Shown piece after piece: positions 8,513 to 47,837 of a stretch of 64,000 bases of DNA (positions are counted from its first letter, which is position 1; the number at the start of each line of letters is the position of its first letter). Source of the stretch: Roseibium sp. (GTDB lineage: Bacteria; Pseudomonadota; Alphaproteobacteria; Rhizobiales; Stappiaceae). The notes under the pieces were generated by a model. It searched no databases, was not told the origin of the DNA, and was given only the letters and a program-made list of their open reading frames with translations. The DNA lies in contig JAEPNV010000013.1 in the NCBI GenBank assembly GCA_017643215.1, positions 62,001 through 126,000 of the forward strand. The letters are read 5' to 3'. Both the position numbers and the translations under genes were made by a program.

Positions 8513-8673
8513 TCACGCGTCCGCCATGGTAAATCTGTCGGCAGCCGGCCGGGGCCCGGTTGCCTGTTCACCAAATACTATCTGACACACTTTGCAATGG
8601 GCGCCATAAACTTGATTTTACGCGCCACATCTGCAACGCTTCACGCAACGGCACAACAGATAGTGGCACCCAA

Positions 8674-30234: not shown

Positions 30235-31511
30235 CGGTAGAAATACTCCACAAGGAACAGCGGCACGGACGGCACGTAGGTGCACAGAAGCAACACCGCA
30301 AGAAGCACAAGAATGAACCAGATGTTGACCTTGGAAACCGCCCAGATATTGGCACGCGCCACCGCACAGCTGGTGATGAGCACCGAGGCCACCGGTGGGG
30401 TCTGCTGGCCAATGGCAAGGTTCAAGGTGACCACAAGACCGAAATGCACCGGGTCAATCCCCGCCGCGTTGATCAGTGGAATGACGATCGGCACGACCAG
30501 AATGATGGCCGCAGCCGAATGCAAGAAGAACCCGACCACCAGAAAGAAGAAGTTCAGGATCAGCAGGATCATCCACTGCTGGGCCGTCACCGCAAGGATG
30601 CCCTCGGCCAGCTGCTGCGGGATCTGCGCACGGGTCAGGAAGCCGCCGATCAGCACCGATGCGGCCACGAGAAGCATCACAACCGCCGTCTGCATGCCGC
30701 CATCCAGCATGGCACGGCGCAGGTGCTTCAGGTCGATATTGCGGTACCAGGCCGACACCAGCAGCGCGGCGATAACGGCAAGACCCGCGGCCTCGGTCGC
30801 AGTAACAAAACCACCAAAGATACCGCCGAGGATGATGACCGGAAGCGCGAATGCCGGCAATGCGTCAACAAAGGTATGACGCAGCTCGCGCCAGTTGAAC
30901 GCCTCTTCAGTCGGCAGGTTGTAGCGCCGGGCAAACGCATAGGCGACCCCCATTAGACCTGCAGCCCCCAGAAGACCGGGCACAACACCAGCTACAAACA
31001 ACTGTTCGACCGAGGTGTTGGACGATGCCGCGTAGAGAATCATCGGGATTGAAGGTGGAATGATGATGGCTAGAGATGCGGAGGACGATGTCACCGCCGC
31101 CGCGAAGGGGGCGGAATAGCCACGCTTTTTCATTTGCGGGATCAGGATCGATCCCATGGCCGCGACGTCGGCCACGGCCGACCCGGAGATTTCGGCAAAG
31201 AACAGCGACACGCCGATATTGACCATGGCCAAGCCGCCGCGCACGAACCCGATCAGGGCGGATACAAAATTGATCAATCGGTCGGTTATGCCGCCCGCAT
31301 TCATGATGGCGCCGGCGAGCACGAACATGGGGATCGCAATGAGCGAGAACTTGGTCGATCCTGCATACATGTCGAGTGCAATGGTGACGATCGCCGAAGT
31401 CCCTTCCACGGCTACGAGACCAATCACCCCGGCGACGGCGAGCGCAATCGCAATCGGAACGTTGATACAGATCAGGACGAGCAGCACCACAAAAATGCCC
31501 AGCATTAGCAT
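30231..31511 (-). CDS. dctM: TRAP transporter large permease (DctM type)
   Basis: A 426-aa inner-membrane protein with about 12 transmembrane helices, the ion-coupled transport subunit of a tripartite ATP-independent transporter. Family segments are CINVPIAIALAVAG, the SLIAIPMFVLAGAIMNAGGI hairpin, SGSAVADVAAMGSILIPQM and ASSASLAIIIPPSIPMILYA. The C-terminal half repeats the pattern (GQQTPPVASVLITSCAVA). It shares one base with dctQ (TGATG) and overlaps the enoyl-CoA hydratase by ATGA. Confidence 0.95.
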   Translation of the reverse strand: MLMLGIFVVLLVLICINVPIAIALAVAGVIGLVAVEGTSAIVTIALDMYAGSTKFSLIAIPMFVLAGAIMNAGGITDRLINFVSALIGFVRGGLAMVNIGVSLFFAEISGSAVADVAAMGSILIPQMKKRGYSAPFAAAVTSSSASLAIIIPPSIPMILYAASSNTSVEQLFVAGVVPGLLGAAGLMGVAYAFARRYNLPTEEAFNWRELRHTFVDALPAFALPVIILGGIFGGFVTATEAAGLAVIAALLVSAWYRNIDLKHLRRAMLDGGMQTAVVMLLVAASVLIGGFLTRAQIPQQLAEGILAVTAQQWMILLILNFFFLVVGFFLHSAAAIILVVPIVIPLINAAGIDPVHFGLVVTLNLAIGQQTPPVASVLITSCAVARANIWAVSKVNIWFILVLLAVLLLCTYVPSVPLFLVEYFYR

Positions 31512-32074
31512 CAGGAGGCCTCCTTTATCCGATGGGCGTTTTTCTGGAGCTCGCTATCGACCTCCTCCTCGATCTCAGCGTGTTCCAGGGAGATGCCTTT
31601 CATCGTCTTGGACAGGTATTCGGGCAGGCTTAGAAGCTGGCAAATGATGAACAAAATCGCACCGATTGGGATGACCGACTGGGTAAACTGGATTGGAACC
31701 CAGGTCAGGGAGACCAGATACTCACCCTCAAGCACCTGAAGCACTTCCCAGCCCGCCTTCGCCAGCAGGATGAAGAAGGTCAAGACAATGGCTTCCCCGA
31801 TCAGAACTGCCACGAGCCGAGGTGTGCCGTGGAGCGACAGGAGAACGGAATCAAACCCGATGTGGCGCCGCTTCAGCGCCGCAAGAGCCGATCCGTAATA
31901 GGTGATCCAGGCCAGCATGATTGCCGCGACTTCGTCGTACCAGGAAAAACTATCGCCAAGGAGCCGGGCGATGACGGCCAGGATGACGACGACGGTCAAG
32001 ATGACCATCAAGAGAACCGTGATCCACTCAAGGAGCAGGCTCATGGCCGCGGAAATGCGTTTGATGATTTTCAT
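31511..32074 (-). CDS. dctQ: TRAP transporter small permease (DctQ type)
   Basis: A 187-aa inner-membrane protein with four hydrophobic helices and the DctQ signature region around SFSWYDEVAAIMLAWITYYG and ALKRRHIGFDSVL. It pairs with the large permease, with which it shares one base. It has an extended acidic C-terminal tail (SLEHAEIEEEVDSELQKN) beyond the last helix, longer than in many homologues. Confidence 0.93.
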   Translation of the reverse strand: MKIIKRISAAMSLLLEWITVLLMVILTVVVILAVIARLLGDSFSWYDEVAAIMLAWITYYGSALAALKRRHIGFDSVLLSLHGTPRLVAVLIGEAIVLTFFILLAKAGWEVLQVLEGEYLVSLTWVPIQFTQSVIPIGAILFIICQLLSLPEYLSKTMKGISLEHAEIEEEVDSELQKNAHRIKEAS

Positions 32075-32185
32075 TCAGGGGCACTCAATTCCAGAGGCGC
32101 GCATCCGGCCCGAAGCTTGTTCAGCTGGTCAGAGCGGGCGCGAAGAGGCCGGGGCGAAGAGGATCGCCCCGGTCTGATGTCCGGA

Positions 32186-33163
32186 TTAGCTCGATGAGCC
32201 GAGCGACAGAACCATTTCAATCATGTCGCCACCGCCGTCGACTTCCGATGCAAAGGCATCGTAGATCGGCTTGGACGCCTCGATGAATGCATCCTTGTCG
32301 GCCTCGTTGACCTCAACGCCGGCCGCCTTGATGACACCGAGCAGTTCGACTTCAAGCTCAGCCGCTTTCTGGTAGGTGAAGTCCTGGGTCGATGTTGCGC
32401 ACTCTTTCAGGGTTGCCTGAAGGTCGGCGGGCAGTTTGTCGAAGTGTTTCTTGGACGCCAGGATATAGGCCGGCGTGTAGACGTGGCCGGTCACCGAAAG
32501 GTATTTCTGCACTTCCTGGAACTTGGCCGATGCGATCTGGGCGTATGGATTTTCCTGACCGTCGATGACACCGGTCTGCAGCGCGGTGAAAACGTCCGAA
32601 AATGCCATCGGTGTCGGGTTTGCGCCGTACTCCTTGAACATCTTCACGCGCCATGCACCGTTCGGAGTGCGCAGTTTCACACCCTCAAGGTCAGCCGGAA
32701 CATTGATCGGCCGGATGTTGTTGGTGATGTTGCGGAAGCCATTTTCGGCAAGGCCCACGATGGTGTAGCCCTTACTGTTCGCCGCGGCTTCGAAGGTGTC
32801 CATCATCTCGCCCTGAACCCGGCGCATGTGACCCCGGTCCTTGATGATGTAAGGCATTTCGAAGATGCCAAAGACGTCATCGACGGACGACATGACCGAT
32901 GACGGCAGCGCGAATTGCACTTGTCCAAGTTTCAGTTTTTGAAGGAGCTCCTTGTCCTTGCCAAGCTGGGACGCGCCGAAGGTCTGAACCTCGGCGGTGC
33001 CGCCGGCGGCCTCGTTCACGCAGGCTGCGAAATTGTTGACCGTCGCCTCGAACAGCGAGCCCGGATTTCCAACATGGCCGAACCGCAGCGTCGTATCCGC
33101 TGCGAACGCCTGACCGGCGAAAAGAGCTGCTGCTGCAACTCCAACCAATGCACTGATCTTCAT
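32186..33163 (-). CDS. dctP: TRAP transporter solute-binding protein (DctP family)
   Basis: A 325-aa periplasmic binding protein with a signal peptide cleaved near AFAAD (about residue 21). Typical features are LRFGHVGNPGSLFEATVNNF, the Arg/Asn ligand region (FRNITNNIRPINVPADLEGV then KLRTPNG) and QTGVIDGQENPYAQIASAKF, the most conserved part of the family. The conserved LRTP-type arginine that binds a carboxylate is present, so the ligand is probably an organic acid. It is 111 bp upstream of dctQ and 111 bp downstream of the aminotransferase gene. Confidence 0.94.
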   Translation of the reverse strand: MKISALVGVAAAALFAGQAFAADTTLRFGHVGNPGSLFEATVNNFAACVNEAAGGTAEVQTFGASQLGKDKELLQKLKLGQVQFALPSSVMSSVDDVFGIFEMPYIIKDRGHMRRVQGEMMDTFEAAANSKGYTIVGLAENGFRNITNNIRPINVPADLEGVKLRTPNGAWRVKMFKEYGANPTPMAFSDVFTALQTGVIDGQENPYAQIASAKFQEVQKYLSVTGHVYTPAYILASKKHFDKLPADLQATLKECATSTQDFTYQKAAELEVELLGVIKAAGVEVNEADKDAFIEASKPIYDAFASEVDGGGDMIEMVLSLGSSS

Positions 33164-33274
33164 TTCCGTTTCCTCCCTTGGAACGTTTTTTCAGGTGCGA
33201 GGGTAGTTCCTGTCACGCGCCGAAGATCCTCCTGCTCCGGCGCGCTTCAGATCGTTTGTGTGCACTTGTCCCTG

Positions 33275-34462
33275 TCACTCGGCCGCGGCGCGGCCCTGGT
33301 TCATGGTTTCGCCCAGGACATCCATTGCCGCCTGGACGCCGCCAGCCTGATGCGGCACGCCCGCGTCTCGCAGGCCCATCTCCACGCCAGCCAAAGTGCC
33401 GCACAGCATCAGGTCGTTGAAATCACCCAGGTGACCGATGCGGAAGACGCGGTCCGCGACCTTGGACAGGCCATTGCCGAGAGACATGTCGTAATTGGCG
33501 AGCGTTATGGAACGGAAAAGGTCCGCAGAATGCCCCTCCGGCATCAGGACGGCGGTCAGCACGCCCGAGCAGTGTTCAGGCTTCGTGCAAAGCACATCCA
33601 GGCCCCAGGCGCGCACTGCAGCGCGGGTCGCCCTGCCGTGACGGGCATGGCGGGCAAAGACGTTGGCCATGCCCTCCTCCCGCAGCATGGCAATGGCCTC
33701 GTTCAGTCCGAACAAAAGATTGGTCGCCGGTGTGTAGGGGAAATAACCGTTCGTGTTCGGACCGATCATCTCGTCCCACGCCCAGTAGGACTTTTGCAGA
33801 GAGGCTGTCTTGGACGCCTCCAATGCCTTTTCGCTGACAGCGTTGAAGGACAGGCCCGGCGGCAGCATCAGTCCCTTCTGGGATCCAGAGACGGTGACAT
33901 CCACTCCCCAGGCATCGTGCTCATAGGGCAATGAGGCGAGACCCGAGATCGTGTCGACCATGAGTAGGGCCGGATGGCCGGCAGCATCGATTGCTTTGCG
34001 GATATCGGCTATCGGCGAGACTGCCCCCGTCGACGTTTCATTGTGTACCACACACACGGCCTTGATCTCGTGGGCCGTGTCCGCGCGCAGACGCTCCTCG
34101 ATTTTCGCTGGATCCGCCCCGGCCCGCCACTCACTTTCAATGAACACCGGGTTCAGGCCCAACCGGGTGGCAAGCCCTTTCCACAATGTCGCAAAATGAC
34201 CGGTCTCGTACATCAGGACGGTGTCGCCTGGTGACAAGGTGTTCACCAGCGCAGCTTCCCAAGCGCCGGTGCCCGATGATGGATAAATCACGACGTGCGC
34301 TTCGGTCCCGAAGACCCATTTCATGCCATTGAGCGCAGCCTTGCCGACATCCCCGAATGCCGGGCCGCGGTGGTCCATTACCGGAAAGTCCATGGCGCGC
34401 AGAATGCGATCGGGCACGTTGGACGGACCCGGAATCTGCAGGAAATGACGACCGGCTGGCAT
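33275..34462 (-). CDS. Class V aminotransferase (serine/alanine/aspartate--glyoxylate type)
   Basis: A 395-aa PLP enzyme that probably transfers an amino group to glyoxylate. Features are QIPGPSNVPDRILRAMDFPV, SGTGAWEAALVNTLSPGD, VHNETSTGAV, MVDTISGLASLPYEHDAWGV and the PLP lysine in VSGSQKGLMLPPGL. Length matches serine--glyoxylate aminotransferase. BhcA of the beta-hydroxyaspartate cycle is in the same family, but bhcB, bhcC and bhcD are absent here. It heads the minus-strand catabolic cluster, divergent from the YdiJ-like dehydrogenase. The amino donor cannot be told from sequence. Confidence 0.88.
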   Translation of the reverse strand: MPAGRHFLQIPGPSNVPDRILRAMDFPVMDHRGPAFGDVGKAALNGMKWVFGTEAHVVIYPSSGTGAWEAALVNTLSPGDTVLMYETGHFATLWKGLATRLGLNPVFIESEWRAGADPAKIEERLRADTAHEIKAVCVVHNETSTGAVSPIADIRKAIDAAGHPALLMVDTISGLASLPYEHDAWGVDVTVSGSQKGLMLPPGLSFNAVSEKALEASKTASLQKSYWAWDEMIGPNTNGYFPYTPATNLLFGLNEAIAMLREEGMANVFARHARHGRATRAAVRAWGLDVLCTKPEHCSGVLTAVLMPEGHSADLFRSITLANYDMSLGNGLSKVADRVFRIGHLGDFNDLMLCGTLAGVEMGLRDAGVPHQAGGVQAAMDVLGETMNQGRAAAE

Positions 34463-34537
34463 GTATTATTCCTCCCTCAACGCGGCATTCGCGCCGCCCT
34501 TTTTTCCGCCCCGACAATGCATCTGCTCGAGGGCTGG

Positions 34538-34576
34538 TTGACAACTATTGAATTATGAATTCATTTTTAATGTCAA
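34538..34576. promoter_or_regulatory. Nested dyads in the divergent promoter of the catabolic cluster
   Basis: TTGACA (34538-34543) and TGTCAA (34571-34576) are mirror elements that can serve as outward or inward -35 boxes. Between them TGAATTATGAATTCA (34549-34563) has perfect 6-bp arms around ATG. The stretch is sharply AT-rich. It is a good candidate operator for the GntR regulator encoded in the cluster. Confidence 0.5.
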
Positions 34577-34613
34577 GAACAGAAATTTCGGACCATCCGA
34601 AAAGGGAGGATGC

Positions 34614-37532
34614 ATGCTCCGCGAAGGGCTCAGATCGCGACTGGCGAAAAACTTTGACGGTGACCTGCTGTTCGACGACTTTTCCCGCGCCCGCTACGCA
34701 ACCGACGCCTCGCACTACCAGATCGTGCCGGCGGCCGTGGCGGCCCCGCGCACCGCGGAAGATGTGGCCAAGGCGCTTGACGCTGCACGAGAAGACGGCC
34801 TGCCGGTCACGATGCGCGGTGGCGGCACCTCACAATGCGGGCAAACGGTCAACAGCGGCCTTGTGCTGGATTGCTCCAAATACCTCAACGGGCTTCTTGA
34901 GCTTGATGTGGAAGGACGCCGGGCCCTGGTTCAACCAGGTATTGTACTAGATGAGCTGAACCGGATGCTGAGGCCGCACGGGCTCTGGTTCCCGGTCGAC
35001 GTTTCAACCTCATCGCGCGCGACGCTCGGCGGTATGACCGCCAACAATTCCTGCGGTGCACGCTCGCTGCGCTACGGCACAACACGCGACAACATAATTT
35101 CACTAAAGGGGCTTCTGGCAAACGGCACCCCGTTTGAATTCGGCCCAGGTTCGGGAAACCGGGTGCCAGACGACATGCTTCAGCGGTTGACGGCGCTCGG
35201 CCAACGCGAAGCTGACGAAGTTGCCCTGCGGTTTCCAAAGGTCCAGCGCCGGGTCGGCGGTTACAACATCGATGCCCTGGTTCCCGGCAGCACGCCCATC
35301 AACCTGGCACACCTCCTGGTCGGCTCGGAAGGCACGCTGGCGGTTTCAACCGCGATCGAAATCAAACTGTCGCCGCTGCCACCCAAAGATAGGGTCCAGG
35401 GCATCTGTCACTTTCCGACGTTCAGAGCCGCCATGGAGGCCGCGCAGCATCTGGTCAAGCTGAAGCCGACACAGGTCGAGCTGGTCGACCGGACCATGCT
35501 CAATCTTGCGCGCGAGATCCCCGTTTTCGTGCCGACATTGAAGGCCTTCCTCAAGGGTGATCCGGCGGCCCTCCTAATTGTCGAATTCGCCGACAGCCCG
35601 GATGAGAACGCGGAGAGCATCCGCGACCTTCACGATTGCATGGCTGACCTCGGGTATGGCTTTGAGGGGGACGGAGACAAACAGGGCGGTGTCGTCGAAA
35701 TATGGGAGGCGGCGCTCATTGCCGATATTGGTGAACTGCGCAAATCCGGTCTGAACATCATGATGTCGATGAAGGACGCGGCAAAACCAGTGTCTTTCGT
35801 CGAGGACGCCGCGGTCCCTCTGGAGCATCTGGCCGACTACACCGACCGGCTGACAGAGGTCTTTCGCAAACATGACACCGAAGGCACGTGGTACGCGCAT
35901 GCCTCCGAAGGCTGTCTGCATGTCCGCCCGGTGCTGAACCTGCGCCTTGAAAAAGACGTCAAGGCTATGCGGGCCATCGCCGAAGAAGCGTTTTCCTTCG
36001 TAAGGGAGTACAAGGGCTCGCATTCGGGCGAGCATGGCGACGGGATCGTGCGCTCGGAATTTCACGAAATGATGTTCGGTCAGCGTCTTGTGCGAGCTTT
36101 TGCCGAAGTGAAGCAGACCTTCGACCCTGAAGGTGTTCTCAACCCCGGCAAGATCGTCGATCCGCCTAAAATGGACGACCGCAGCCTGCTCCGCTACCCG
36201 CCGGAGTACCGGTTCGACGATCTCCGTACCGGTTTTGACTGGTCAGCATGGTCCGGCGCCTCGGGCGGTTTCCAGGGCGCCATCGAGATGTGCAACAACA
36301 ATGGCGCGTGCCGCAAGCTCCAGGGCGGCGCCATGTGCCCCTCATACCGGGTGACGCGCAACGAGAAGGACGTAACACGGGGCCGGGCCAACACCCTGCG
36401 GCTGGCGATGTCCGGCAAACTTGGCAAGGACGCTTTGCTGCGCGATGAAATGGCGGAGACGATGAAGCTCTGCGTCGGATGCAAGGCCTGCCAGCGGGAA
36501 TGCCCGACCGGCGTCGACATGGCCAAAATGAAGACCGAGGTGCTCCACCAGCGCGGGCAGAAACTCGGCTTTTCGCTAAAGGACCGCCTGATCGCGGAGC
36601 TGCCCCGCTATGCGCGCCTTGCCGTAACGCTGCGCCCGCTGTTCGCGCTCCGCAACAAGGTCCCGGCCCTGGCCAGACTGAGCGAGCGGATAACCGGTAT
36701 TTCAGCACGGCGGTCATTACCGGTGTTGCGCGTGGATTTCTTCCGCGAACGCGAAATCGCCGCCACAGCCGAGGGCGAAAATGCTGAGGCGGTGGTGCTG
36801 TTTGCAGATACCTTCAATCGCTGGATGGACCCCGAGATCCCGAGAGCCGCCCTCAACGTTCTCACCCGGGCCGGCTACCGGGTTCATGCGGCCAGTCCTT
36901 TGACAGGCCGCCCCTTGTGCTGCGGACGGACCTATCTCGCGGCTGGCATGATCGACAAGGCCCGGGCAGAAGCGCGGCGGACCGCCAAGGCGCTTTTGCC
37001 CCATGTCCAAGCCGGGCGCCCGGTGGTCGGACTGGAGCCGTCATGCCTTTTGACGCTGCGCGATGAATTCAAAGCTCTGCTGCCGGGCGCGGACAGCGGT
37101 CTGCTCGCGGACAACGCCCTTTTGTTTGAAGAGTTTGTCGCCCGCGAGCTCGAGGCGGGGCGCATGTCCCTATCGGCAACCGGAGGCACGTCAAAGGCCT
37201 ACGTGCATGGGCACTGCCACCAAAAGGCCGCCGGCGTGATGGGCGATATGGCGCGCACGCTGCGCGCGGTGCCGGGGCTTGACGCCGACTTTATCGAATC
37301 GTCTTGCTGTGGCATGGCAGGCGCGTTCGGATATGATGCCGACACAATCGACGTTTCGATGGCGATGGGAGAGTTGACGTTGCTACCGAAAGTGCGGGCG
37401 GCTGAAGATGATGCGCTGATCATCGCGAACGGTACGTCCTGCCGGCATCAGATCGCAGACGGGACAGGACGCAAGGTGCTGCACGTGGCGCAGGTTTTGG
37501 AGGCTGCAATGCAAAGGGGAGAGCCTGAATAG
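34614..37532 (+). CDS. FAD-linked oxidoreductase with iron-sulfur and CCG domains (YdiJ/GlcD-GlcF-like fusion)
   Basis: A 972-aa fusion expected to oxidise a 2-hydroxy acid and send electrons through Fe-S clusters towards quinone. FAD_binding_4 is at about 30-230 (MRGGGTSQCGQTV, TANNSCGARSLRYGTTRDN). The FAD-oxidase C-terminal domain spans about 260-520 (SGEHGDGIVRSEF). Two ferredoxin-like Cys groups are at about 560-630 (CNNNGACRK; CVGCKACQRECPTGVD). CCG-type cysteine-rich segments follow (LCCGRTY; SSCCGMAGAFGYD). The closest characterised type is D-2-hydroxyglutarate or D-lactate dehydrogenase. GGGAGGA before ATG 34614 sets the start. One base overlaps the GntR gene. Confidence 0.92.
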   Translation: MLREGLRSRLAKNFDGDLLFDDFSRARYATDASHYQIVPAAVAAPRTAEDVAKALDAAREDGLPVTMRGGGTSQCGQTVNSGLVLDCSKYLNGLLELDVEGRRALVQPGIVLDELNRMLRPHGLWFPVDVSTSSRATLGGMTANNSCGARSLRYGTTRDNIISLKGLLANGTPFEFGPGSGNRVPDDMLQRLTALGQREADEVALRFPKVQRRVGGYNIDALVPGSTPINLAHLLVGSEGTLAVSTAIEIKLSPLPPKDRVQGICHFPTFRAAMEAAQHLVKLKPTQVELVDRTMLNLAREIPVFVPTLKAFLKGDPAALLIVEFADSPDENAESIRDLHDCMADLGYGFEGDGDKQGGVVEIWEAALIADIGELRKSGLNIMMSMKDAAKPVSFVEDAAVPLEHLADYTDRLTEVFRKHDTEGTWYAHASEGCLHVRPVLNLRLEKDVKAMRAIAEEAFSFVREYKGSHSGEHGDGIVRSEFHEMMFGQRLVRAFAEVKQTFDPEGVLNPGKIVDPPKMDDRSLLRYPPEYRFDDLRTGFDWSAWSGASGGFQGAIEMCNNNGACRKLQGGAMCPSYRVTRNEKDVTRGRANTLRLAMSGKLGKDALLRDEMAETMKLCVGCKACQRECPTGVDMAKMKTEVLHQRGQKLGFSLKDRLIAELPRYARLAVTLRPLFALRNKVPALARLSERITGISARRSLPVLRVDFFREREIAATAEGENAEAVVLFADTFNRWMDPEIPRAALNVLTRAGYRVHAASPLTGRPLCCGRTYLAAGMIDKARAEARRTAKALLPHVQAGRPVVGLEPSCLLTLRDEFKALLPGADSGLLADNALLFEEFVARELEAGRMSLSATGGTSKAYVHGHCHQKAAGVMGDMARTLRAVPGLDADFIESSCCGMAGAFGYDADTIDVSMAMGELTLLPKVRAAEDDALIIANGTSCRHQIADGTGRKVLHVAQVLEAAMQRGEPE

Positions 37533-38659: not shown

Positions 38660-41600
38660 TTGACTGCTCCTGCTTGTTTTCCTGCCGATGAAGCGGAACG
38701 CCTTGCCACTTTGCGCCGCTATTCCATTCTGGACACGCCGCCGGAAGAGAACTTTAACCGTATTGTAAGGCTGGCCTCGCGCCAGTTCAAAGTCCCGATC
38801 GCGCTGATTTCTTTGATTGATGAGAACCGCCAGTGGTTCAAGGCGGTACGCGGGCTGGATGCCAAGCAGACGGACCGCGACCCCGCCTTTTGCGCCCATA
38901 CCATATTGGGCGATAGCGTTTTCTACATCCCGGACGCCACCAGGGATGAACGCTTTGCCGACAATCCGTTTGTCACCGGTGATCTCGGCATTCGCTTTTA
39001 TGCCGGCGCGCCACTTGTGACGCCGCTTGGCGTCACGCTCGGCACGCTGTGCCTGATCGACACCGAACCGCGTCATGATTTTTCGGCGGAAGACCAGGCC
39101 CTGTTGACGGATCTGGCGGCCGTTGTCGTCGATCAGATCGAAATGCGCTATGCGACCGGAGACGTGCTCACGGCGGTGGAGGGCCGCATCAAGGCAGAAG
39201 ACGATCTCGCCACAACCGAGCATCAGCTGGAATTGTTCTTCGCGCACACGCCCGTCGCTGTCGCCATGTTCGACACTCAGATGCGCTATATCGCGGCCAG
39301 CAGCGCCTGGCGAGACGTGTTCGAGCTTGAGACCGAACGCCTCGTCGGCCGCTGCCAATACGATGTGGTGCCGCATTTACCGGCCGAGTGGCGGCTCCAG
39401 AACGATCAATGCCTCCAGGGCGCGACGTGGACAATCGAGGAAGACCAGCTTCCACGACCGGGCGGCGGTTTTCACTGGGTCCGCCGCCGCGCCTGCCCAT
39501 GGCGCGAGCGTTCGGGCAAGATCGGCGGCGTAATCGTCTTTGTCGAACTCATCAACGACCGGAAAGAGGCTGAAGCCGAACTGGAACGCAGCCATGCATT
39601 CTTCCAGGCCGTGTTGGAAAACATGCAGGACGGCATCGTTGCCTGCGATGCGGACGGCCGGCTTTCACTTTTCAACGCGGCAACTCGGCGCTTCCACGGG
39701 GTGGACAGTGCACCAATTCCACCGGAGCAATGGACCGAACGCTACGACCTCTTCGATGCCGATGGCGAAACGCCGCTTGCAATGGAGCGCATCCCGCTGT
39801 TTCGGGCGCTCAATGGCGAAACGGTCGAACAGCAGGAAATGGTCATTGCGGCGAAGGGCCAGGAGCCGCGCCGTTTGGTTGCCGATGCGGCGGCGATGTT
39901 CGACTCCAGCGGAAACAAGCTGGGCGCCGTGGCGTCGATGCATGATGTGACGAAGGAACGTAAGGCGGAAGAGCGCTGGAAGAATGCCGAGTCCCGCTAT
40001 CGGGCCATCTTCAACCACACCTTCCAGTTCTGCGGCCTGCTCGATCTTGAGGGGACCCTGCTTGAAGCCAACGACACCGCCATCAATTTCGCCGGTCTGA
40101 CCCGCGCCGACCTTGTCGGCAAGCCGTTTTGGGACTGCCACTGGTGGCAAGTCGGCGAACCAACCAAGGCGCAGTTGCGTGATGCAGTTGAGCGCGCGCG
40201 CACAGGCGCGTTTGTCCGTTACGAAGTCGAAGTCCAAGGCAGGGGTGGCCTTCGGATTCCGATTGACTTCTCGCTCAAGCCCGTAGAGGACGAGAACGGG
40301 GCCGTCATCCAGCTTATCGCAGAAGGGCGGGATATTTCCGATAAGCGCGAAACTGAAGCGCTCCTCCGCCTGGTTGCCGATAACCTGCCGTTTCTTGTCG
40401 CTTATGTGGACACCGATCTAAGGTATCGCTTCATCAACCGCACTGGTGCCCAGTGGTTCGCGCGTCCCGCAGAGGATATTCTCGGACGAACCGCACAAGA
40501 GATCCTCGGCAACGCCAACCTCAAAGGGCTCAAGGAGCATCTGCGACGCGCATCCGGTGGAAAAGGGGAAACCGTCGAGGAAGCGGTGACGTATTGCGAC
40601 GGAATCAGGCGTTTTGTCCAACGGGTTTATGTCCCGGACCGGGATGAAAACGGCACCATTCGCGGATACATCGCCATCGCGATGGACACGACTGAGCGCA
40701 AGACCGCTGAGGAGGCGCTCAAGCGGCACAAAAATGAGCTTGAACTCATACTAAACAGTGTCCCGATCCGTGTGTTTTACAAAGACGACAAGAATCGAAT
40801 TCTCCGGCTCAATAAACCCGCAGCCGATTCTCTGGGCATTTCAGTCGAAGCCGGAGAAGGGGCTGACACTTACGATCTGTTCCCCGAGATGGCCAACAAA
40901 TACCATGACGATGATCTCGAAGTCATCAATTCTGGTCAGCCTAAACTCGGCATCGTCGAGGAATACACGCCACGCGATGGCCGGCGTGGCTGGGTACGCA
41001 CCGACAAAGTTCCCCATACCGATCCTGACACAGGCGAACGCTTCATTTTCGTTGCGGCATTCGACATTACAACGGAGAAGCACGCCGAGGACGCATTGCG
41101 TGCCAGCGAGGAGCGGTATCGACTCCTGTACAACAAGACGCCGGTGATGCTGCACTCGATCGACCGGGAAGGTCGTCTTCTGAGTGTCAGCGACTTTTGG
41201 CTGGACAAGCTGGGCTATGAGCGCAGCGAGGTGATCGGGCGCGATTCGACCGACTTCCTGACGCCAGAATCCCGTGAGCGGGCAACCAAAGGTATTTTGC
41301 CCGAATTCGTGCGGACCGGGACCTGCAAGGACATTGAGTGCCAGATGGTCACGAAATCGGGACAGGTGGTCGACGTATTGCTATCGGCCATTGCCGAACA
41401 TGGCAGCACTGGTGAGGTCATCAAGTCGCTTGCGGTCATGACCGACATCACGGACCGCAAAGTTGTCGAACGCCAGTTTGTCCAGGCACAGAAGATGGAG
41501 TCGGTCGGTCAACTTACCGGCGGACTAGCCCACGACTTCAACAATCTGCTCGGCGTCATCATGGGGAATCTCCAGCTCATAGAACGCTCTGTTAAAGGCA

Positions 41601-42652
41601 ATGAGAGAGCGGAAAAGCGGATAACGGCAGCACTTGGAGCTGTCGATAAGGGTGCCGAACTGACCAGGCGACTGCTTGCGTTTTCCCGCAAGCAGAATCT
41701 GGAGACGGAGGCCGTGGCGCCCGGGCCGCTCCTCACCAACATAAGCCATCTTATCCAGCGGACATTGGGAGAGAGCGTGGAGCTGGAAAGCCATGTTCCG
41801 CCTGATCTTCCGGTTGTGCGTACCGACCCTAACCAGCTGGAGTCAGCCATTCTCAATCTTGCCGTCAACGCGAGAGACGCGATGCCCGATGGAGGCAAAC
41901 TGACCATCGAGGCGAACGCGGTGAGGATTAACGACAACGATGCCGCTAGAAACAACGAGATCGAAGCTGGGGACTATGTTGTCATTGCGGTCACGGATAC
42001 AGGCATCGGCATTCCCAAAGACAAGCTTCAAAGTGTCTTTGAGCCTTTCTTCACAACGAAAGAAGTCGGGAAAGGCAGTGGCCTCGGTCTGAGTATGATC
42101 TACGGCTTCATGAAGCAGTCCGGCGGGCAGGTCCGCATCTACAGCGAAGAAGAGGTCGGGACCACGGTTCGGCTCTATCTGCTGATCGGCAATCAGGCCT
42201 GGGAAACGACAGTGGTGACGCCAGAGGCCGTGGCGCAGGTTTCTGGCGGGCGAGAGAAGATCCTTGTTGTCGAGGACCAGGAAGAGGTACGCGATATCGC
42301 TGTCGCTCTATTGGAAGATCTCGGCTATGTCGTTCATGAAGCCGGTGATGCTGCCCAGGGTTTGCGTCTGCTCGGATCCGATGACGCATTCGATCTGCTG
42401 TTTACCGATATCGTGATGCCTGGCGGTATGGACGGCACCAAGCTGGCGCAACAAGCGCGCGAGTTGCGGCCGGGCCTGCCGGTTGTCTTCACGACGGGGT
42501 ACGCAGAGGCGGCCGTGCTGCATGAAGGAGAGGTGTATTCCGCCAGCAATCTCGTCACCAAGCCCTATCGCCGCAATGAACTGGCGACCAAAATCCGCTC
42601 AGCCCTGGATGCGTCGAAAGTAGGCGCCGTTCCGACTTCCGCGTCGGCTTGA
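38660..42652 (+). CDS. Multi-PAS hybrid sensor histidine kinase
   Basis: A 1330-aa cytosolic hybrid kinase. A GAF domain spans about 20-165 (YSILDTPPEENFNRIVRLAS). About six PAS modules follow at about 190, 310, 450, 570, 695 and 820, most closed by PAC-type ends (VTKERKAEE, DISDKRETEA, DTTERKTAEE, DITTEKHAED, DITDRKVVE). HisKA has the phospho-His at about 958 (GQLTGGLAHDFNNLLGV). The HATPase domain has NARDAMPDGG, DTGIGIPKD and GSGLGLSM. A C-terminal receiver has the phospho-Asp at about 1250 (LLFTDIVMPGGMDG). No membrane helix is evident. The start is a TTG with weak GAAGGA before it; no in-frame ATG precedes the GAF domain. It heads a four-gene c-di-GMP module. Confidence 0.92.
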   Translation: MTAPACFPADEAERLATLRRYSILDTPPEENFNRIVRLASRQFKVPIALISLIDENRQWFKAVRGLDAKQTDRDPAFCAHTILGDSVFYIPDATRDERFADNPFVTGDLGIRFYAGAPLVTPLGVTLGTLCLIDTEPRHDFSAEDQALLTDLAAVVVDQIEMRYATGDVLTAVEGRIKAEDDLATTEHQLELFFAHTPVAVAMFDTQMRYIAASSAWRDVFELETERLVGRCQYDVVPHLPAEWRLQNDQCLQGATWTIEEDQLPRPGGGFHWVRRRACPWRERSGKIGGVIVFVELINDRKEAEAELERSHAFFQAVLENMQDGIVACDADGRLSLFNAATRRFHGVDSAPIPPEQWTERYDLFDADGETPLAMERIPLFRALNGETVEQQEMVIAAKGQEPRRLVADAAAMFDSSGNKLGAVASMHDVTKERKAEERWKNAESRYRAIFNHTFQFCGLLDLEGTLLEANDTAINFAGLTRADLVGKPFWDCHWWQVGEPTKAQLRDAVERARTGAFVRYEVEVQGRGGLRIPIDFSLKPVEDENGAVIQLIAEGRDISDKRETEALLRLVADNLPFLVAYVDTDLRYRFINRTGAQWFARPAEDILGRTAQEILGNANLKGLKEHLRRASGGKGETVEEAVTYCDGIRRFVQRVYVPDRDENGTIRGYIAIAMDTTERKTAEEALKRHKNELELILNSVPIRVFYKDDKNRILRLNKPAADSLGISVEAGEGADTYDLFPEMANKYHDDDLEVINSGQPKLGIVEEYTPRDGRRGWVRTDKVPHTDPDTGERFIFVAAFDITTEKHAEDALRASEERYRLLYNKTPVMLHSIDREGRLLSVSDFWLDKLGYERSEVIGRDSTDFLTPESRERATKGILPEFVRTGTCKDIECQMVTKSGQVVDVLLSAIAEHGSTGEVIKSLAVMTDITDRKVVERQFVQAQKMESVGQLTGGLAHDFNNLLGVIMGNLQLIERSVKGNERAEKRITAALGAVDKGAELTRRLLAFSRKQNLETEAVAPGPLLTNISHLIQRTLGESVELESHVPPDLPVVRTDPNQLESAILNLAVNARDAMPDGGKLTIEANAVRINDNDAARNNEIEAGDYVVIAVTDTGIGIPKDKLQSVFEPFFTTKEVGKGSGLGLSMIYGFMKQSGGQVRIYSEEEVGTTVRLYLLIGNQAWETTVVTPEAVAQVSGGREKILVVEDQEEVRDIAVALLEDLGYVVHEAGDAAQGLRLLGSDDAFDLLFTDIVMPGGMDGTKLAQQARELRPGLPVVFTTGYAEAAVLHEGEVYSASNLVTKPYRRNELATKIRSALDASKVGAVPTSASA

Positions 42653-42669
42653 ACAGTTTGGAGCGTCGA

Positions 42670-43911
42670 ATGCGCCTTCAAAACAGACTCCTCATCGTAG
42701 ACGACGAGCCGGGTATTCGCGCCTTCTTCCGCGATGTCGCGAGCGAGTTGGACTTCATCGTTGCCGACGCAGCGGATGGCGTCGACTTCGACAGGCTCTA
42801 TGACACGTTCCAGCCGACCGTGATCCTTCTGGACTTGACCCTGCCCGGGACGGATGGCGTCGAGCTGCTGCGGGAACTGGCAAGCAAGAAATGCCGAGCG
42901 GCGATCATACTCGCCAGCGGGCGGGATAGGCGCGTGCTTGCGACCGCGCAACGCGTCGGCGACAGTCTGCAACTGGACATGCGCCCACCGCTGCAAAAGC
43001 CAGTAGATATCGTTGCGCTGGAACAAGCACTCAGGTCCGCCGGTCCGAGCACCACCGCACCGGCCGCACTGGCGAAAAACGATGGCGCGAACGAGGCCAC
43101 GATCAGCGCCGAGCAACTGGAACAGGCCATCACGCGCGAGGAGCTTGTTGTTCACTATCAGCCGAAGGTCTGCCTCCAGAGCGGGGAGGTCTATCCGATC
43201 ATCGGCAGCGAGGCGCTGGTGAGATGGAACCATCCGTGGCGTGGCCTTGTCTCGCCGGCGGAGTTCATTCCGCTTGCCGAGCAGTCCGGGTTGATCGGCC
43301 CCTTGACCGATTTCGTGCTGCGGGCCGCCGTCCATCAGTTGAAGACCTGGTCGAAGGCAAAAAAGGCGCGCCCGGTCTCCATCAACCTGTCCCCGGTGCA
43401 ACTCACGGACCTCACATTGCCCGACCAGATCGCAAGCCTGCTCGACACGGCCCGGCTCGAAAGATCGCTTCTTGTGGTTGAGGTCACCGAGGAAGCGGCC
43501 ATGGCCGATATCGAGAAGGCCACCGATATCCTGACGCGGCTTCGGCTCAAGGACATAGCCGTCTCTTTAGATGATTTCGGGTCCGGTTTTTCCTCGCTCG
43601 TGGAAATCTATCGAATGCCGCTGAGCGAATTGAAATTCGACCGATCGCTTATAGTCGATCTCGACACCAACGAAGACGCAAGAACTGTCGTGCGCGCCCT
43701 GGTGGCTTTGGCGAAGACGCTGGGAATATCGGTTTGCGCGGAAGGCGTAGAAACCTGGGAGACGGTATCTTTCCTCAAGGCCATCGGCTGTGAAAAAGCC
43801 CAAGGTTATGTCTTAAGCAAACCTTTACCCGCCGATGATTTCATCAACGAGAAGTGGTTTTCCAAATCCGATGCAAATGACGCGGGCCAAAAGAGACCCG
43901 TTACAGCCTAA
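42670..43911 (+). CDS. Response regulator with EAL output (c-di-GMP phosphodiesterase)
   Basis: A 413-aa protein with a receiver (about 1-125; RLLIVDDEPGIRAFF, phospho-Asp in VILLDLTLPGTDGVELL) and an EAL domain (about 150-395). The EAL residues look complete: SEALVRW, SINLSPVQL, VEVTEEAAM, LDDFGSGFSSL, LKFDRSLI, EGVET and KAQGYVLSKP. Hydrolysis of c-di-GMP under phosphorylation control is therefore expected. GGAG at 42660-42663 sets the start, 17 bp after the kinase gene, so the kinase is its probable partner. Confidence 0.93.
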   Translation: MRLQNRLLIVDDEPGIRAFFRDVASELDFIVADAADGVDFDRLYDTFQPTVILLDLTLPGTDGVELLRELASKKCRAAIILASGRDRRVLATAQRVGDSLQLDMRPPLQKPVDIVALEQALRSAGPSTTAPAALAKNDGANEATISAEQLEQAITREELVVHYQPKVCLQSGEVYPIIGSEALVRWNHPWRGLVSPAEFIPLAEQSGLIGPLTDFVLRAAVHQLKTWSKAKKARPVSINLSPVQLTDLTLPDQIASLLDTARLERSLLVVEVTEEAAMADIEKATDILTRLRLKDIAVSLDDFGSGFSSLVEIYRMPLSELKFDRSLIVDLDTNEDARTVVRALVALAKTLGISVCAEGVETWETVSFLKAIGCEKAQGYVLSKPLPADDFINEKWFSKSDANDAGQKRPVTA

Positions 43912-43926
43912 CCATCTGAATCGCCC

Positions 43927-44292
43927 ATGCCGGATGTTCTGATCATTGACGATGATATGCTTTTCCGGAACATGCTGCGCGATATGCTTGAGGAGCTCAA
44001 ATACCGTGTTGTCGAGGCCGAAGACGGCAGATCGGGTGTGGAGCGCTTTCGCGAAATCAAGGTCGACTTTGTGATGACCGATATCTTGATGCCCAACCAA
44101 GAAGGCATCGAGACCATCCAGAAGATCAAGCACTTGGTGCCGGACGTCGCCATCATTGCGATGTCAGGAGGCGGTTCTAGCCAAAACATGACATTTCTGG
44201 AGCTTGCGGGAAAACTCGGCGCGGATCGAATCCTGCCAAAACCGTTTGGACTTGAAGACCTGGAGCAGGTCTTCCTTGGTCTCAGGGGCTGA
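43927..44292 (+). CDS. Single-domain response regulator (CheY-like)
   Basis: A 121-aa stand-alone receiver with the acidic pocket LIIDDDMLFRNML, phospho-Asp in DFVMTDILMPNQEGIE, the switch Ser in IIAMSGGG and the Lys in RILPKPFGL. It has no output domain, so it may shuttle phosphate or bind a partner. It is 15 bp after the REC-EAL gene and one base before the degenerate EAL gene, and is probably made with both. Confidence 0.92.
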   Translation: MPDVLIIDDDMLFRNMLRDMLEELKYRVVEAEDGRSGVERFREIKVDFVMTDILMPNQEGIETIQKIKHLVPDVAIIAMSGGGSSQNMTFLELAGKLGADRILPKPFGLEDLEQVFLGLRG

Positions 44293-44293
44293 T

Positions 44294-45025
44294 ATGGACA
44301 GTGCCGAGAACAATGCTTCCGAGCTGTTGCTGCGGCCCATATGGGATGTGCGGCAGAACGCGTTGATGGCCTTCCGTCCGGAGGTCAGCGATCTGAAATA
44401 CCGTCACCGTCGTGCGCTTGGAACCGATGGTCTGACCGCAGCGCTAAATGTAGTGGCACGACGCGACCGCAAAGGCGAAACCACACTAGCTCTCTTGCCC
44501 ATCGAGGCGAAAGCCGTTCAACAGCCTAAGAAGCTTGCCGTTTTCACGCAAGCTCTCGGTCTCTTGCCCGAACAATTGCGCAGCCGGCTTGTCATTGAGG
44601 TCCTGTCGGTTCCGGCGGGCCTGTCCGCAAGAGAGCTCCAATTGCAGTTGAAGCCGATCACAAGCCTGAGCAGGGGGTTCATCTGCCATGCGCCCGTTTG
44701 TGCCGGCCGGCTGCGCTTCTTCCGCGAGGCAGGGGCGTTTGCCGTGGGGTTCGATCTGGCGGCCGAACGCGGCCGCGATGAGGCGGAGTTGATGAAACAG
44801 ATCGAAGCCTTTGTGCAACGCGCGAATGCTGCCCGCCTCAAGGTCATCGGTCACGGCTGCCACTCGCGAAGCCTTGTAATGAGTTCCGTATGCGCTGGGG
44901 TAAATTTTCTGTCCGGCGACGCGATCCAGGCGCCCGTTGCCGCCACCGAAGGAGCGGTATGCTTTCGGCCCCATCATCTGTTCGGGCTGGGCAGACCTCG
45001 ACTGGTGGCGACGAACTGCGGCTGA
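44294..45025 (+). CDS. Degenerate EAL-like protein
   Basis: A 243-aa protein whose start and end resemble an EAL domain: RPIWDVRQNALMAFRPEV corresponds to Q-P-I-x-D..x-E-A-L-x-R, and VNFLSGDAIQAPVA to the closing G-x-x-x-Q-G-x-x-x-x-x-P. The EAL triad itself is lost (LMAFRP), as are the DDFG and metal-binding Asn/Glu motifs, so it should not hydrolyse c-di-GMP. It may bind the nucleotide or act as a protein partner for the REC or REC-EAL proteins. ATG 44294 immediately follows the receiver stop; the upstream open frame overlaps the receiver gene and is not used. Confidence 0.65.
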   Translation: MDSAENNASELLLRPIWDVRQNALMAFRPEVSDLKYRHRRALGTDGLTAALNVVARRDRKGETTLALLPIEAKAVQQPKKLAVFTQALGLLPEQLRSRLVIEVLSVPAGLSARELQLQLKPITSLSRGFICHAPVCAGRLRFFREAGAFAVGFDLAAERGRDEAELMKQIEAFVQRANAARLKVIGHGCHSRSLVMSSVCAGVNFLSGDAIQAPVAATEGAVCFRPHHLFGLGRPRLVATNCG

Positions 45026-45974
45026 GTTTAGGCGGCCGGCCACGCTGCTTGTTCTACTGTACATCGATCGATTGGAGCGTCGGGCGTTTACATGGAAACA
45101 AGTCCAGTTGCGTTGAAGTAGGTCAGCATTCTTAGGCTTCGAACATATCGCACATGTTTCCATTGGCTTGCGAGAGCACATCGAATGTGCGGGCGTTGGC
45201 GTTTCTCAAATGCGCCGTTAGTTTAGAGAACGCCATGTCGTTGCTGTGCACCAGCCAACTGCCCCCGATTTGAGTTAGAGTTTTCCGCGGTGATTTTCCT
45301 GGCTGGGAAGGAGCGGAATTCATGACGGCATCGAAGTTTTCGGACGCGCAAAAGCGTTCATCTTTAAGCGCGGGGACGAAGGTGTTCCGGCGGCGGAAAT
45401 ATGCCGTGAGGCAGGTCTCAGCCAGGCGACCTACTTCAATTGGAGGAAGAAGTATATCGGCCTGATACCGTCGGAGATGAAAAGGGTTCGGGACCTGGAG
45501 CAGGAGAACACCCGGTTGAAAAAGATCGCCGCGGACCTGTTTCTCGACAAGGAGATGCTCCAAGACACTGTCAAACGAAATGTATCGTCCGCCCTGCCGT
45601 TGCATGGGTCTTTGATGACGACGGTTGGGTTTGCGCAAATGTATCCGGCGGATCGCGAGCGGGCCAGTTTTCCGGACAGGCCATGATGAGGTCCGCGCAT
45701 TCAGTTTCCAAATAGCTGGTTCGGGCGCGAAGCCCGCTTTCGAGCCGGATTACCGAATGCCGATCGTCCCTTTCGCCATCATCTCGAGCCTCGCAATCTG
45801 TTACGGTTTCATCGGAAAGGCGCTGATCTCAGGTGGTGGTGATGACCTTCTCCCTGACCTTTCCCCCTGATCCGGGGCACGTTTGACTGGAATTTTCCGG
45901 TTGCTGTACTTACCCCATTCTCTAGGCCGCTCTTTTCCGGGGGGGGGCAGAGCACCAGCTTTAACGGGCCTAGT
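45026..45974. other. About 950-bp non-coding stretch holding an IS relic
   Basis: Between the degenerate EAL gene and the 3' end of the glycosyltransferase only a broken IS3-type orfA is recognisable (listed separately). A nine-G run is at 45939-45947. A minus-strand frame at 45132-45242 starting MAFSKLTAHLRNANARTF could be a truncated coding remnant but has no ribosome-binding site. No IS ends or target duplications were identified. Confidence 0.55.
45322..45581 (+). pseudogene. IS3-family transposase orfA relic, frameshifted
   Basis: The frame starts ATG ACG GCA TCG with MTASKFSDAQK, the usual start of IS3-family (IS407/ISRm-like) OrfA. After CAAAAGCG it needs a -1 correction to continue as AFIFKRGDEGVPAAEICREA, GLSQATYFNWRKKYIGLIPS and EMKRVRDLEQENTRLKK. 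The conserved tail LFLDKEMLQDTVKRN is still legible, then homology stops. One base was lost in the A-run near 45350, and the DDE-encoding orfB is absent. It is therefore an inactive fragment. Confidence 0.82.
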
Positions 45975-47837
45975 TTACCGAACGTTGCGCCGACGGCGAC
46001 GCACGATTGACGACGACCGGAACCGCCGTTTCGCCTGACCATGTTCGGTCTTGTTCCAATGATATGGTGCGCGGAAGAACTCCCAAAGCGCCCGATAAAA
46101 CGCAAAACCTGTGAACACCCAATAGACCGGCACGGCCAAAAGGTCGGCATATCTTGGCTTGATCCGGCGGCGAGCGGCCGCCGCCCACGCAGCAACGGCC
46201 GCCCCCAGATATCCGATGGCCGCAGCAGCTGCGCCAATTACAAGAAACACCCGGCCGGCCGGCCCGTCCTGCCAGGGCAGGTCCATGACGCCGGTCGCAT
46301 AGCCTGTTAGGAGCAGCAGGAACACAGGATGAAGCGCGATCAAGAACAAGCTTCCGACGAAGACCGCTGCCAGTGCGGCCACGGGTACAATGCCGAGATC
46401 CTTCACCAATTCCGCCGGAGCCCGCATGTGAACACATATCGTTTGCAGCCAACCCTTGTACCATCGCGCCCGCTGGGCAAACCATGTGGAAAACCGGACA
46501 GGCGCTTCCTCGTAGGTGGAACTGGCCAGTACGGCAAGACGATATCCAAAACGCGCGAGGCGTACCCCGAGATCAGCGTCTTCTGTAACGTTGTGCCGGT
46601 CCCAACCGCCGACACGATCAAGCGCGGATTTGCGGAAATGATTGGAGGTGCCACCCAGCGGAAAGGGAAGGCCGTTCCGATAAAACCACGGCAGCAACTG
46701 GTCGAACAGACAGGCATATTCCAATGCAAATTGCCGGGAAAAAAAGCCGTCATGGGAATTGTCGATGCTCAGCCGCGCCTGAATGCAGGCCAGGTCATCG
46801 GGGGCCAGGACGAACATCAGCGCGGCCTTCTTCAACTGGTCGGGTGCCGGGCGGTCTTCGGCGTCAAAGACCGTGACATAGTCTCCGGTTGCCGCATCCA
46901 GACCGTAGGACAACGCTCTTGGCTTCGTCTTCGGCCACCCCCTTGGCACAACAAGAATGTCCATGTGCCGATCAAGCGGCTCGCCGCGTAATGCCGCGAG
47001 GGTTTCACTGTCATCGGTTTCAACGAGGAGCAGGATCTGCAAGCGGGACACGGGATAGTCGATCTGCCGCAACGCCCTTAACAGTTCGCGCACGACCGCG
47101 GCCTCGCGGTATAGCGGCACCAGGACGGAGTAGCGCGGCCAGCAAATGTCACTTTTGTGAAACCGTCCCGGCAGCCGAAAATCCAGTGGATCAAGCCATG
47201 TCGTCCAAACGCTGATCAATCTGGCAAGGCCTGAGACAAGACAGGCCACCGCCACCAACACCGCCAGCAGGTAGAACCAGAACAGAACAGGCACGGTGAT
47301 AACACATATCGCAGCGGTAAAAGCCGCCAGGAAGACCGGCCAAGTGCGGCCGCCAGAGGTAGGCTTTGCGGACAAATCGGGAAACCGGCATTCAAGGTCT
47401 GAAGCCGGCGAGTTCATCACTGTCGCCGCAAACCGCAAGGCGGACGGCTCTGCGATCCGCACCTGCGCAGCAAAGTCCGGATTGCGTCGCAAATGGTCCC
47501 GCACCATATCGAATTGCTCATAATCGGGCGCAACCACATACACCGGCTTGCCGTCCGACACGCTGACCAACATGGGACCATGCTCGAATTCGCCCATTTG
47601 TATGGGCCGGTCATTGATTGTGCGCGGCCGGAAACTGCGCTTCGGCAAAAAAGGAACTCCGCAATGTTCCGCGTAAGCGCTATATATTGCTTCCGGACTG
47701 ACAAGGCCGTTGCGCACCAGATACTCGACGGGTGTGATGCCTTTTTTCGCCGCGATGCGGCATGCCGACAGGATCACGGACTTTGACACGCCGCGCGACA
47801 ACAGCACCTTCAAAGCGCCAGGAATCTCCGTCTCCAC
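45975..47837 (-). CDS. GT2 family membrane glycosyltransferase with N-terminal GspE/MshEN-like domain
   Basis: A 620-aa inner-membrane protein. Residues about 1-150 look like the N-terminal domain of type II secretion ATPases (LVRNGLVSPEAIYSAYAEHC, PFLPKRSF). Two helices follow at about 165-215. A GT-A domain spans about 230-470, with YSVLVPLYREAAVVRELLRA, FDAEDRPAP (D-x-D), VTEDADLGVRLAR and QRARWYKGW. Several C-terminal helices end with a basic tail. It should use a nucleotide sugar to make an exopolysaccharide or glycolipid. The N-terminal domain often binds c-di-GMP in MshE-type proteins, so c-di-GMP control is possible. The start is GTG 47837. Confidence 0.88.
   Translation of the reverse strand: METEIPGALKVLLSRGVSKSVILSACRIAAKKGITPVEYLVRNGLVSPEAIYSAYAEHCGVPFLPKRSFRPRTINDRPIQMGEFEHGPMLVSVSDGKPVYVVAPDYEQFDMVRDHLRRNPDFAAQVRIAEPSALRFAATVMNSPASDLECRFPDLSAKPTSGGRTWPVFLAAFTAAICVITVPVLFWFYLLAVLVAVACLVSGLARLISVWTTWLDPLDFRLPGRFHKSDICWPRYSVLVPLYREAAVVRELLRALRQIDYPVSRLQILLLVETDDSETLAALRGEPLDRHMDILVVPRGWPKTKPRALSYGLDAATGDYVTVFDAEDRPAPDQLKKAALMFVLAPDDLACIQARLSIDNSHDGFFSRQFALEYACLFDQLLPWFYRNGLPFPLGGTSNHFRKSALDRVGGWDRHNVTEDADLGVRLARFGYRLAVLASSTYEEAPVRFSTWFAQRARWYKGWLQTICVHMRAPAELVKDLGIVPVAALAAVFVGSLFLIALHPVFLLLLTGYATGVMDLPWQDGPAGRVFLVIGAAAAAIGYLGAAVAAWAAAARRRIKPRYADLLAVPVYWVFTGFAFYRALWEFFRAPYHWNKTEHGQAKRRFRSSSIVRRRRRNVR

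Follow-up and report, generated by a model that had tools for sequence, protein, structure and literature searches.

A lone receiver and a degenerate EAL-type protein beside a RocR-type REC-EAL regulator in a four-gene operon of Roseibium sp.

The operon treated here lies in a 64,000-nucleotide stretch of Roseibium sp. DNA (contig JAEPNV010000013.1, positions 62,001 to 126,000; hereafter the window, with positions counted from its first letter), where four genes encode a hybrid histidine kinase, a response regulator joining a receiver to an EAL domain (REC-EAL), a lone receiver, and a fourth protein which profile comparison and a structural model together identify as a degenerate EAL-type domain (dEAL). 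With moderate confidence, we propose that the lone receiver and the dEAL protein make up a single response regulator in two chains, whose EAL output is non-catalytic and which would form a second branch beside the active REC-EAL, a predicted phosphodiesterase of cyclic dimeric GMP (c-di-GMP), under one kinase. The four genes are the following.

38660..42652, + strand: hybrid histidine kinase, 1330 amino acids (aa), with GAF, six PAS_4, HisKA, HATPase_c and a C-terminal receiver (Pfam, NCBIfam, hydropathy)
42670..43911, + strand: REC-EAL response regulator, 413 aa (PF00563, 1.2e-67; PF00072, 2.8e-15; motif alignment)
43927..44292, + strand: lone receiver of the SGGG subtype, 121 aa (PF00072, 8.8e-24)
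44294..45025, + strand: predicted degenerate EAL protein, 243 aa, without a GGDEF half (hhalign, AlphaFold model, catalytic-position alignment)

The fourth protein and the operon that encodes it

The fourth protein has no Pfam or NCBIfam hit, falling below the Pfam gathering cut-off for PF00563, and a search of the PDB with its single sequence gave one match, which was insignificant. When a 19-row profile of its family was aligned by hhalign with seven EAL-containing proteins, the match extended over 227 columns at 96.3% (E 1.6e-9), whereas 30 column-shuffled profiles and the reversed profile gave at most 0.32%. Among solved structures, the best sequence match of the family profile is the EAL domain of FimX (2.1e-7), strongest over the N-terminal third. 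Single-sequence AlphaFold prediction was poor (mean predicted local distance difference test score, pLDDT, 42); better was a model from three dEAL rows and no EAL row, which gave a partly confident barrel (mean pLDDT 57, predicted template-modelling score 0.59, 93 of the 243 residues at 70-90). The best 30 Foldseek matches of this model in the PDB are all EAL domains (best E 1.4e-6), and its VIA Z scores reach 13.8 for EAL domains. Since some unrelated barrels follow near 11.5 (e.g., 6w6a, Z 11.5), the assignment of an EAL-type fold rests on profile and model together. A preliminary description of this DNA had already taken the protein for EAL-like; a fold unrelated to EAL, which would have spoken against it, was looked for by structure prediction, and EAL was found instead (Foldseek, VIA).

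We compared nine positions which, on the EAL literature, we take to be catalytic. The REC-EAL protein retains all of them, in line with the preliminary description, and the fourth protein has changed eight, keeping only Glu102, aligned with E271 of REC-EAL. The loss of catalytic and metal residues described earlier thus stands for eight positions and not for Glu102, and the lost residues support the view that the protein is catalytically dead. Across the family, Glu occupies the position equivalent to E271 in 41 of 84 members. Standard EAL residues are rare elsewhere (Glu181 in 6/83, Asn239 in 7/84, Glu358 in 6/84 and Gln378 in 6/84), and the residues common in their stead are Pro (76/83), Trp (52/83), Asp (77/83; Gly in the window protein) and Gly (81/84).

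The second gene product is a RocR-type regulator, a receiver followed by an EAL domain with its catalytic residues, and residues 7-393 align with the RocR chain 3sy8 (E 5.8e-41); its 249 bits against the NCBIfam PvrR model NF052596 lie below the curated cut-off of 580. Judged by its residues, it is probably an active c-di-GMP phosphodiesterase.

All four genes stand head to tail, separated by 17, 15 and 1 bp; coordinates, spacings and the single strand are as first described. The kinase gene starts with TTG behind GAAGGA, the REC-EAL gene with ATG, and the fourth gene with an ATG preceded by AGGGG, which sits in the end of the receiver gene. The kinase itself, first described as having a GAF domain, about six PAS domains, its own receiver and no membrane segment, was borne out by Pfam and hydropathy: no membrane segment is evident, the hydropathy peak (19 residues, mean 1.66, at residue 115) falling within the GAF match at 28-156. 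Pfam gives it a CckA-like HisKA-HATPase-receiver core, and its score against the NCBIfam CckA model NF046020 is 392.7 bits, below the cut-off of 1000. Read by eye, all three receivers (those of the kinase and REC-EAL and the lone one) retain the acidic pair, the phospho-acceptor Asp, the Ser/Thr and the Lys. No Rfam family reached threshold, and promoter- and terminator-like sites are rarer than in shuffled sequence. On comparative sequence grounds, the four-gene arrangement is more than chance, because the gene order recurs elsewhere and the fourth gene has a 34-38% identical relative in another family.

The dEAL family, its receivers and the recurrent gene order

The dEAL family is large, and no Pfam or NCBIfam model names it. 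Its profile matches 77 of 385 genomes of the class (the present one included); the tail of these includes true EAL proteins, and the 57 genomes matched at E<=1e-10, in 32 families, are the safer count. Within the order, relatives were seen in 5 of 396 other genomes, one of them probably by chance (G383, a weak match of 2.7e-4 in the region of a TonB-receptor frame, left out for that reason). There were none in the 36 same-genus genomes sampled, and no match on plasmids. A scan of named genomes with two short peptide patterns, an insensitive method, matched 161 stretches, of which 2 were confirmed. Most members are frames of 400-650 aa; at E<=0.1, Pfam EAL matches 32 of 84 (best 9.2e-14) and GGDEF 7 of 84. 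On these matches, the longer members may be read as degenerate GGDEF-EAL proteins; the window protein lacks the GGDEF half.

For the neighbourhood counts we used 83 dEAL genes from 80 stretches, 76 of these around class-profile matches and the others being loci L069-L072 (L and G denote loci and genomes). Two loci were dropped, L116 as encoding a true GGDEF-EAL and L082 because its gene is in two pieces and scores below the cut of 95 bits, and some profile-match places fall outside the sample (e.g., G695:C26, G587:C4, G684:C1, G459:C4 and most weak ones). A receiver, lone or fused, lies within 300 bp of 17 of the 83 genes. The control value, for random positions in 20 regions of the same genomes, is 5.9%, and it counts any receiver-bearing frame including hybrid kinases. 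Six of the 83 genes are REC-dEAL fusions (L069, L086, L099, two in L106, and L115); those of L086, L099, L106 and L115 are longer, and their middle parts have no Pfam GGDEF match. REC-EAL genes lie within 300 bp of 4 of the 83, and none of the 20 control regions holds an EAL gene. Kinase proximity was tried as a marker of the family and rejected as too weak (15/83, 18%, against 10.8% in the control). Three tandem pairs of family members have no receivers nearby (L057:7148-10461, L063:7856-10781 and L107:5944-8766); they might form heteromers.

The order kinase, REC-EAL, receiver and dEAL on one strand is found as four genes in the window and L038; in L099 and L106 the receiver and dEAL are fused. 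These four modules span three taxonomic families. The coupling of the dead EAL to a receiver, suggested in the preliminary description, is therefore supported both by the six fusions and by the same module in three other genomes. L106 holds two REC-dEAL fusions tail to tail (5677-7503 and 7528-9426), one of which ends its kinase, REC-EAL and REC-dEAL operon. In a quick tree, the REC-EALs of the four modules group at SH-aLRT 93, with only seven EALs included, and the smallest supported set holding the window dEAL is its pair with L069 (98). A single clade for the dEALs of the four modules was considered and rejected, as they do not group in this tree.

The comparison of receiver identities took in the window together with 15 selected dEAL loci and 20 REC-EAL loci. 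The lone receiver of the window is 39-51% identical to 11 receivers of nine other dEAL loci (ten lone ones and the fused one of L069), mostly with the SGGG motif; all other compared receivers are at most 34% identical to it, the fused ones of L086, L099 and L106 at 29-31%. By these identities, the split receivers constitute one subtype and the L099 and L106 modules use another. Given this other subtype and the scatter of the dEALs in the tree, the four-part module may have been assembled more than once. An SGGG receiver (8362-8772) also stands behind the REC-EAL of L177, which is 67% identical to that of the window; no dEAL is adjacent, a dEAL match is present on another contig of that genome, and genes read as a transporter of the branched-chain amino-acid type come after the receiver. 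SGGG receivers and dEALs, each found in 77 of the 385 genomes, share 30 of them (odds ratio 3.5, Fisher p 1.2e-5), a statistic on which we do not lean, as it ignores genome size and kinship and the receiver profile was built from 11 rows taken without exception from dEAL loci.

The closest dEAL relative is the REC-dEAL fusion L069 of genome G097, also without a GGDEF half, to which the fourth protein is 38% identical over residues 5-230. It stands directly behind a kinase 60% identical to that of the window over 1329 aa. No EAL gene is on this 16.6-kb contig, and the REC-EAL found elsewhere in the genome is 34% identical to that of the window. In G053, a related kinase (53-55%) is followed by a REC-EAL 61% identical to that of the window, with no dEAL in the stretch, and in G136 neither output lies within the 11.5 kb read around a related kinase (52%). 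The best kinase relatives thus have both outputs (window), only REC-dEAL in the operon (G097), only REC-EAL (G053), or neither in 11.5 kb (G136). Outside the order, G750 carries a 60%-identical REC-EAL (L178) and a REC-dEAL fusion (L086) in separate operons, each with a kinase of its own. In the stretches read around the closest REC-EALs (L176, L177 and L178) there is no dEAL. When two kinase candidates were scored in each of 297 genomes of the order, relatives were found only in the present genome and in G097, G053 and G136, none of these three in the taxonomic family of the window. As the three lie outside the family, the system is patchy, and it has probably moved horizontally or been lost often.

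From the Lys-Pro of the receiver to the RPIW of the dEAL, the linker of L069 counts 32 residues; in the window 15 and 13 residues plus 4 bases lie between. Because the L069 linker has nearly the same length as the two ends in the window, the split appears to differ from the fusion by a frame change within the linker. Separate receiver and dEAL genes are also found in L038, L071, L072 and L074. The split in the window may be natural or an artefact of assembly.

Proposed pathway and competing explanations

In the pathway that we propose, the soluble GAF/PAS hybrid kinase would phosphorylate two regulators, the REC-EAL and the lone receiver. We infer such phosphotransfer because the receivers are intact and share an operon. 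The simplest assumption is that the kinase His passes phosphate directly to the regulators, its own receiver being a sink or tuner, because Pfam finds no Hpt domain at its cut-off in the four operon proteins, nor any HTH or TPR match in them; an Hpt encoded elsewhere in the genome is conceivable. The lone receiver and the dEAL would be two halves of one regulator, encoded by two genes here and as one REC-dEAL protein elsewhere, and phosphorylation of the receiver would alter what the dEAL binds, the output being protein binding rather than catalysis.

Several observations weigh against this pathway. No receiver, kinase or REC-EAL lies within 300 bp of 56 of the 83 dEAL genes, which shows that the domain is not generally tied to phosphorelays, and the proximity of kinases barely exceeds the control. 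Relatives of the kinase are few. The fused receivers of L086, L099 and L106 are of only 29-31% identity, and the dEALs of the four modules are scattered in the tree. The L177 receiver, with no neighbouring dEAL, shows that an SGGG receiver can work without an adjacent one. Finally, the AlphaFold model of the dEAL is moderate (mean pLDDT 57), and in this genome the separate chains of receiver and dEAL may not meet.

Where a REC-EAL is present, it would itself be the most probable single partner of the dEAL. EAL dimers use EAL-EAL contacts, and through such contacts the receiver-controlled dEAL might bind the REC-EAL and suppress its phosphodiesterase activity until the kinase is active, a restraint like that exerted by HnoD; we offer this partner tentatively, as the first of several uncertain candidates. 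The direct neighbourhood in the same order at four loci speaks for it, as do the REC-EAL genes within 300 bp of 4 of the 83 dEAL genes, with no EAL gene in the 20 control regions. A printed precedent exists in the suppression of HnoB by HnoD, as described in the passages cited (PMC6335343). However, the nearest relative sits behind its kinase with no REC-EAL on its contig, REC-EALs are absent within 3 kb of 77 of the 83 dEAL genes (some contigs being short), and the closest REC-EALs stand without a dEAL in the stretches read. Because only 4 of 83 dEAL genes are near a REC-EAL and the operon of the closest relative has none, antagonism of a neighbouring REC-EAL is not the general job of the family, and here it may be. 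Put more widely, some members of this alphaproteobacterial pseudo-EAL family would serve as regulator outputs, whether the receiver is in cis or in trans. One recurrent module would then combine, under one kinase, an active REC-EAL and a pseudo-phosphodiesterase that is controlled by phosphorylation and sets the activity of the REC-EAL; we hold this, too, to be possible yet rather doubtful.

It is unlikely that the dEAL is instead an effector of the FimX or LapD type, which would have lost hydrolysis and kept ligand binding. In its favour, the family profile has its best sequence match to a solved structure in the EAL domain of FimX, and c-di-GMP complexes of the FimX and LapD EAL domains rank among the best fold matches; yet the FimX profile matches are strongest in the N-terminal third, and the window protein has other residues at the equivalents of the EAL-site positions Gln164, Glu181, Arg185, Asp301/302, Lys322 and Gln378, which are unconserved across 83-84 members. 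The sequence lends no support to c-di-GMP binding by the fourth protein, and the c-di-GMP-binding effector put forward in the preliminary description is accordingly not supported.

Less likely still, by analogy with VieB of Vibrio cholerae, the receiver (with the dEAL) could bind the kinase and throttle its autophosphorylation instead of acting on the output. The pair holds the same place as VieB in an operon of kinase and EAL regulator, and the dEAL remains beside the orthologous kinase in G097. VieB itself, in the passages cited, binds VieS and inhibits its autophosphorylation and phosphotransfer under control of its receiver Asp (PMC4352251). Against this, VieB has a TPR region and not an EAL domain, and the L177 receiver stands without an adjacent dEAL. 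Finally, that the fourth gene has no separate function, being the pseudogene of a REC-dEAL fusion or one half of a gene split by an assembly frameshift, would agree with a junction that differs from the fused relative by reading frame at similar linker length and with the lack of relatives in the 36 same-genus genomes sampled, but it is very improbable, as the frame is intact over 243 codons and 38% identical to its relative over residues 5-230, has its own AGGGG before the ATG, shows codon-position base composition like that of its neighbours (weak evidence, as the antisense frame looks similar), and has counterparts in the separate receiver and dEAL genes of L038, L071, L072 and L074.

Flanking sequence, significance and known systems

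Just downstream of the fourth gene, DNA at 45262-45580 matches a Roseibium aggregatum plasmid with 83.5% identity, at the point where an IS3-family transposase region starts; the minus-strand frame at 45135-45638 has no Pfam match. This IS3-like stretch may mark how the operon arrived. Farther downstream, a family-2 glycosyltransferase gene (45975-47837, minus strand) faces the operon and is predicted to be a possible c-di-GMP-linked exopolysaccharide gene. Upstream of the kinase there is a GntR-family regulator, and two pieces spanning 28271-37471 (together 28% of a 24-kb query) are about 76% identical to a Limimaricola variabilis plasmid; this match, which contains an FAD-linked oxidase, a TRAP transporter, a CoA transferase and an aminotransferase, stops before the kinase operon.

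It is known already that dead EAL domains can act as regulators, as in FimX and LapD, and that a dead HD-GYP protein, HnoD, restrains a REC-EAL. In the present case, fusions and gene order link a dead EAL to a receiver and, at four loci, also to a REC-EAL predicted to be active. One kinase and three small soluble proteins would thus suffice for a direct test of whether a pseudo-enzyme controls the breakdown of c-di-GMP. Furthermore, members of the family are frequent in the sampled class, and since at most 32 of 84 members match Pfam EAL even at E<=0.1, c-di-GMP protein counts resting on Pfam should miss many of them. Among the matches listed by a search of open-licence full texts, we recognised none as describing a module of kinase, REC-EAL, receiver and dEAL, and a survey covering the c-di-GMP genes of five alphaproteobacterial orders uses neither of the words degenerate and inactive in its main text (PMC9756655).

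Among known systems, FimX resembles the window protein in its degenerate EAL domain (solved as 4foj, 7lkq and 4f3h). Its domain order, REC-(PAS)-GGDEF-EAL, resembles that of the longer fusions L086, L099, L106 and L115. Unlike FimX, which binds c-di-GMP and PilZ according to PDB titles, the window dEAL stands apart from its receiver and lacks the GGDEF half and the site residues; FimX is a single chain, whereas the window has two (receiver and dEAL) without PAS or GGDEF match. LapD and TipF likewise use a catalytically dead EAL as a regulator, and both differ in being membrane-anchored and in having no known receiver partner in an operon.

The Roc systems of Pseudomonas (RocS/RocR/RocA; RocR3) are alike in placing a RocR-type REC-EAL under kinases with several regulators (PMC12051241). 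RocR3, 49% identical to RocR and without one of seven catalytic residues, indicates, in the passages cited, that a partly eroded REC-EAL can persist in such a network. It is a near-intact REC-EAL, however, unlike the eroded EAL with separate receiver in the window, and the RocA proteins are transcription factors (PMC12051241). VieSAB of V. cholerae is likewise an operon of a hybrid kinase, an EAL response regulator and a third receiver protein; as far as the cited passages describe it, VieA carries an HTH, VieS periplasmic domains and an Hpt, and VieB is a REC-TPR protein (PMC4352251), whereas the window proteins match none of Hpt, HTH and TPR.

HnoK/HnoB/HnoD of Shewanella oneidensis combine, as the cited passages have it, a kinase, a REC-EAL phosphodiesterase and a second regulator with a dead c-di-GMP phosphodiesterase output (PMC6335343, PMC8846402). 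HnoD, a degenerate HD-GYP protein without phosphodiesterase activity, suppresses the EAL protein HnoB by direct interaction, a suppression relieved by kinases (PMC6335343). The dead domain of the window is instead of EAL type, and the Hno system further includes a transcription factor, HnoC, and a nitric oxide sensor of the H-NOX type (PMC6335343, PMC8846402); no H-NOX was found among the eight flanking frames scanned in the window. If the dEAL acts on the REC-EAL, HnoD would be its nearest working parallel; if it acts on the kinase, VieB would be.

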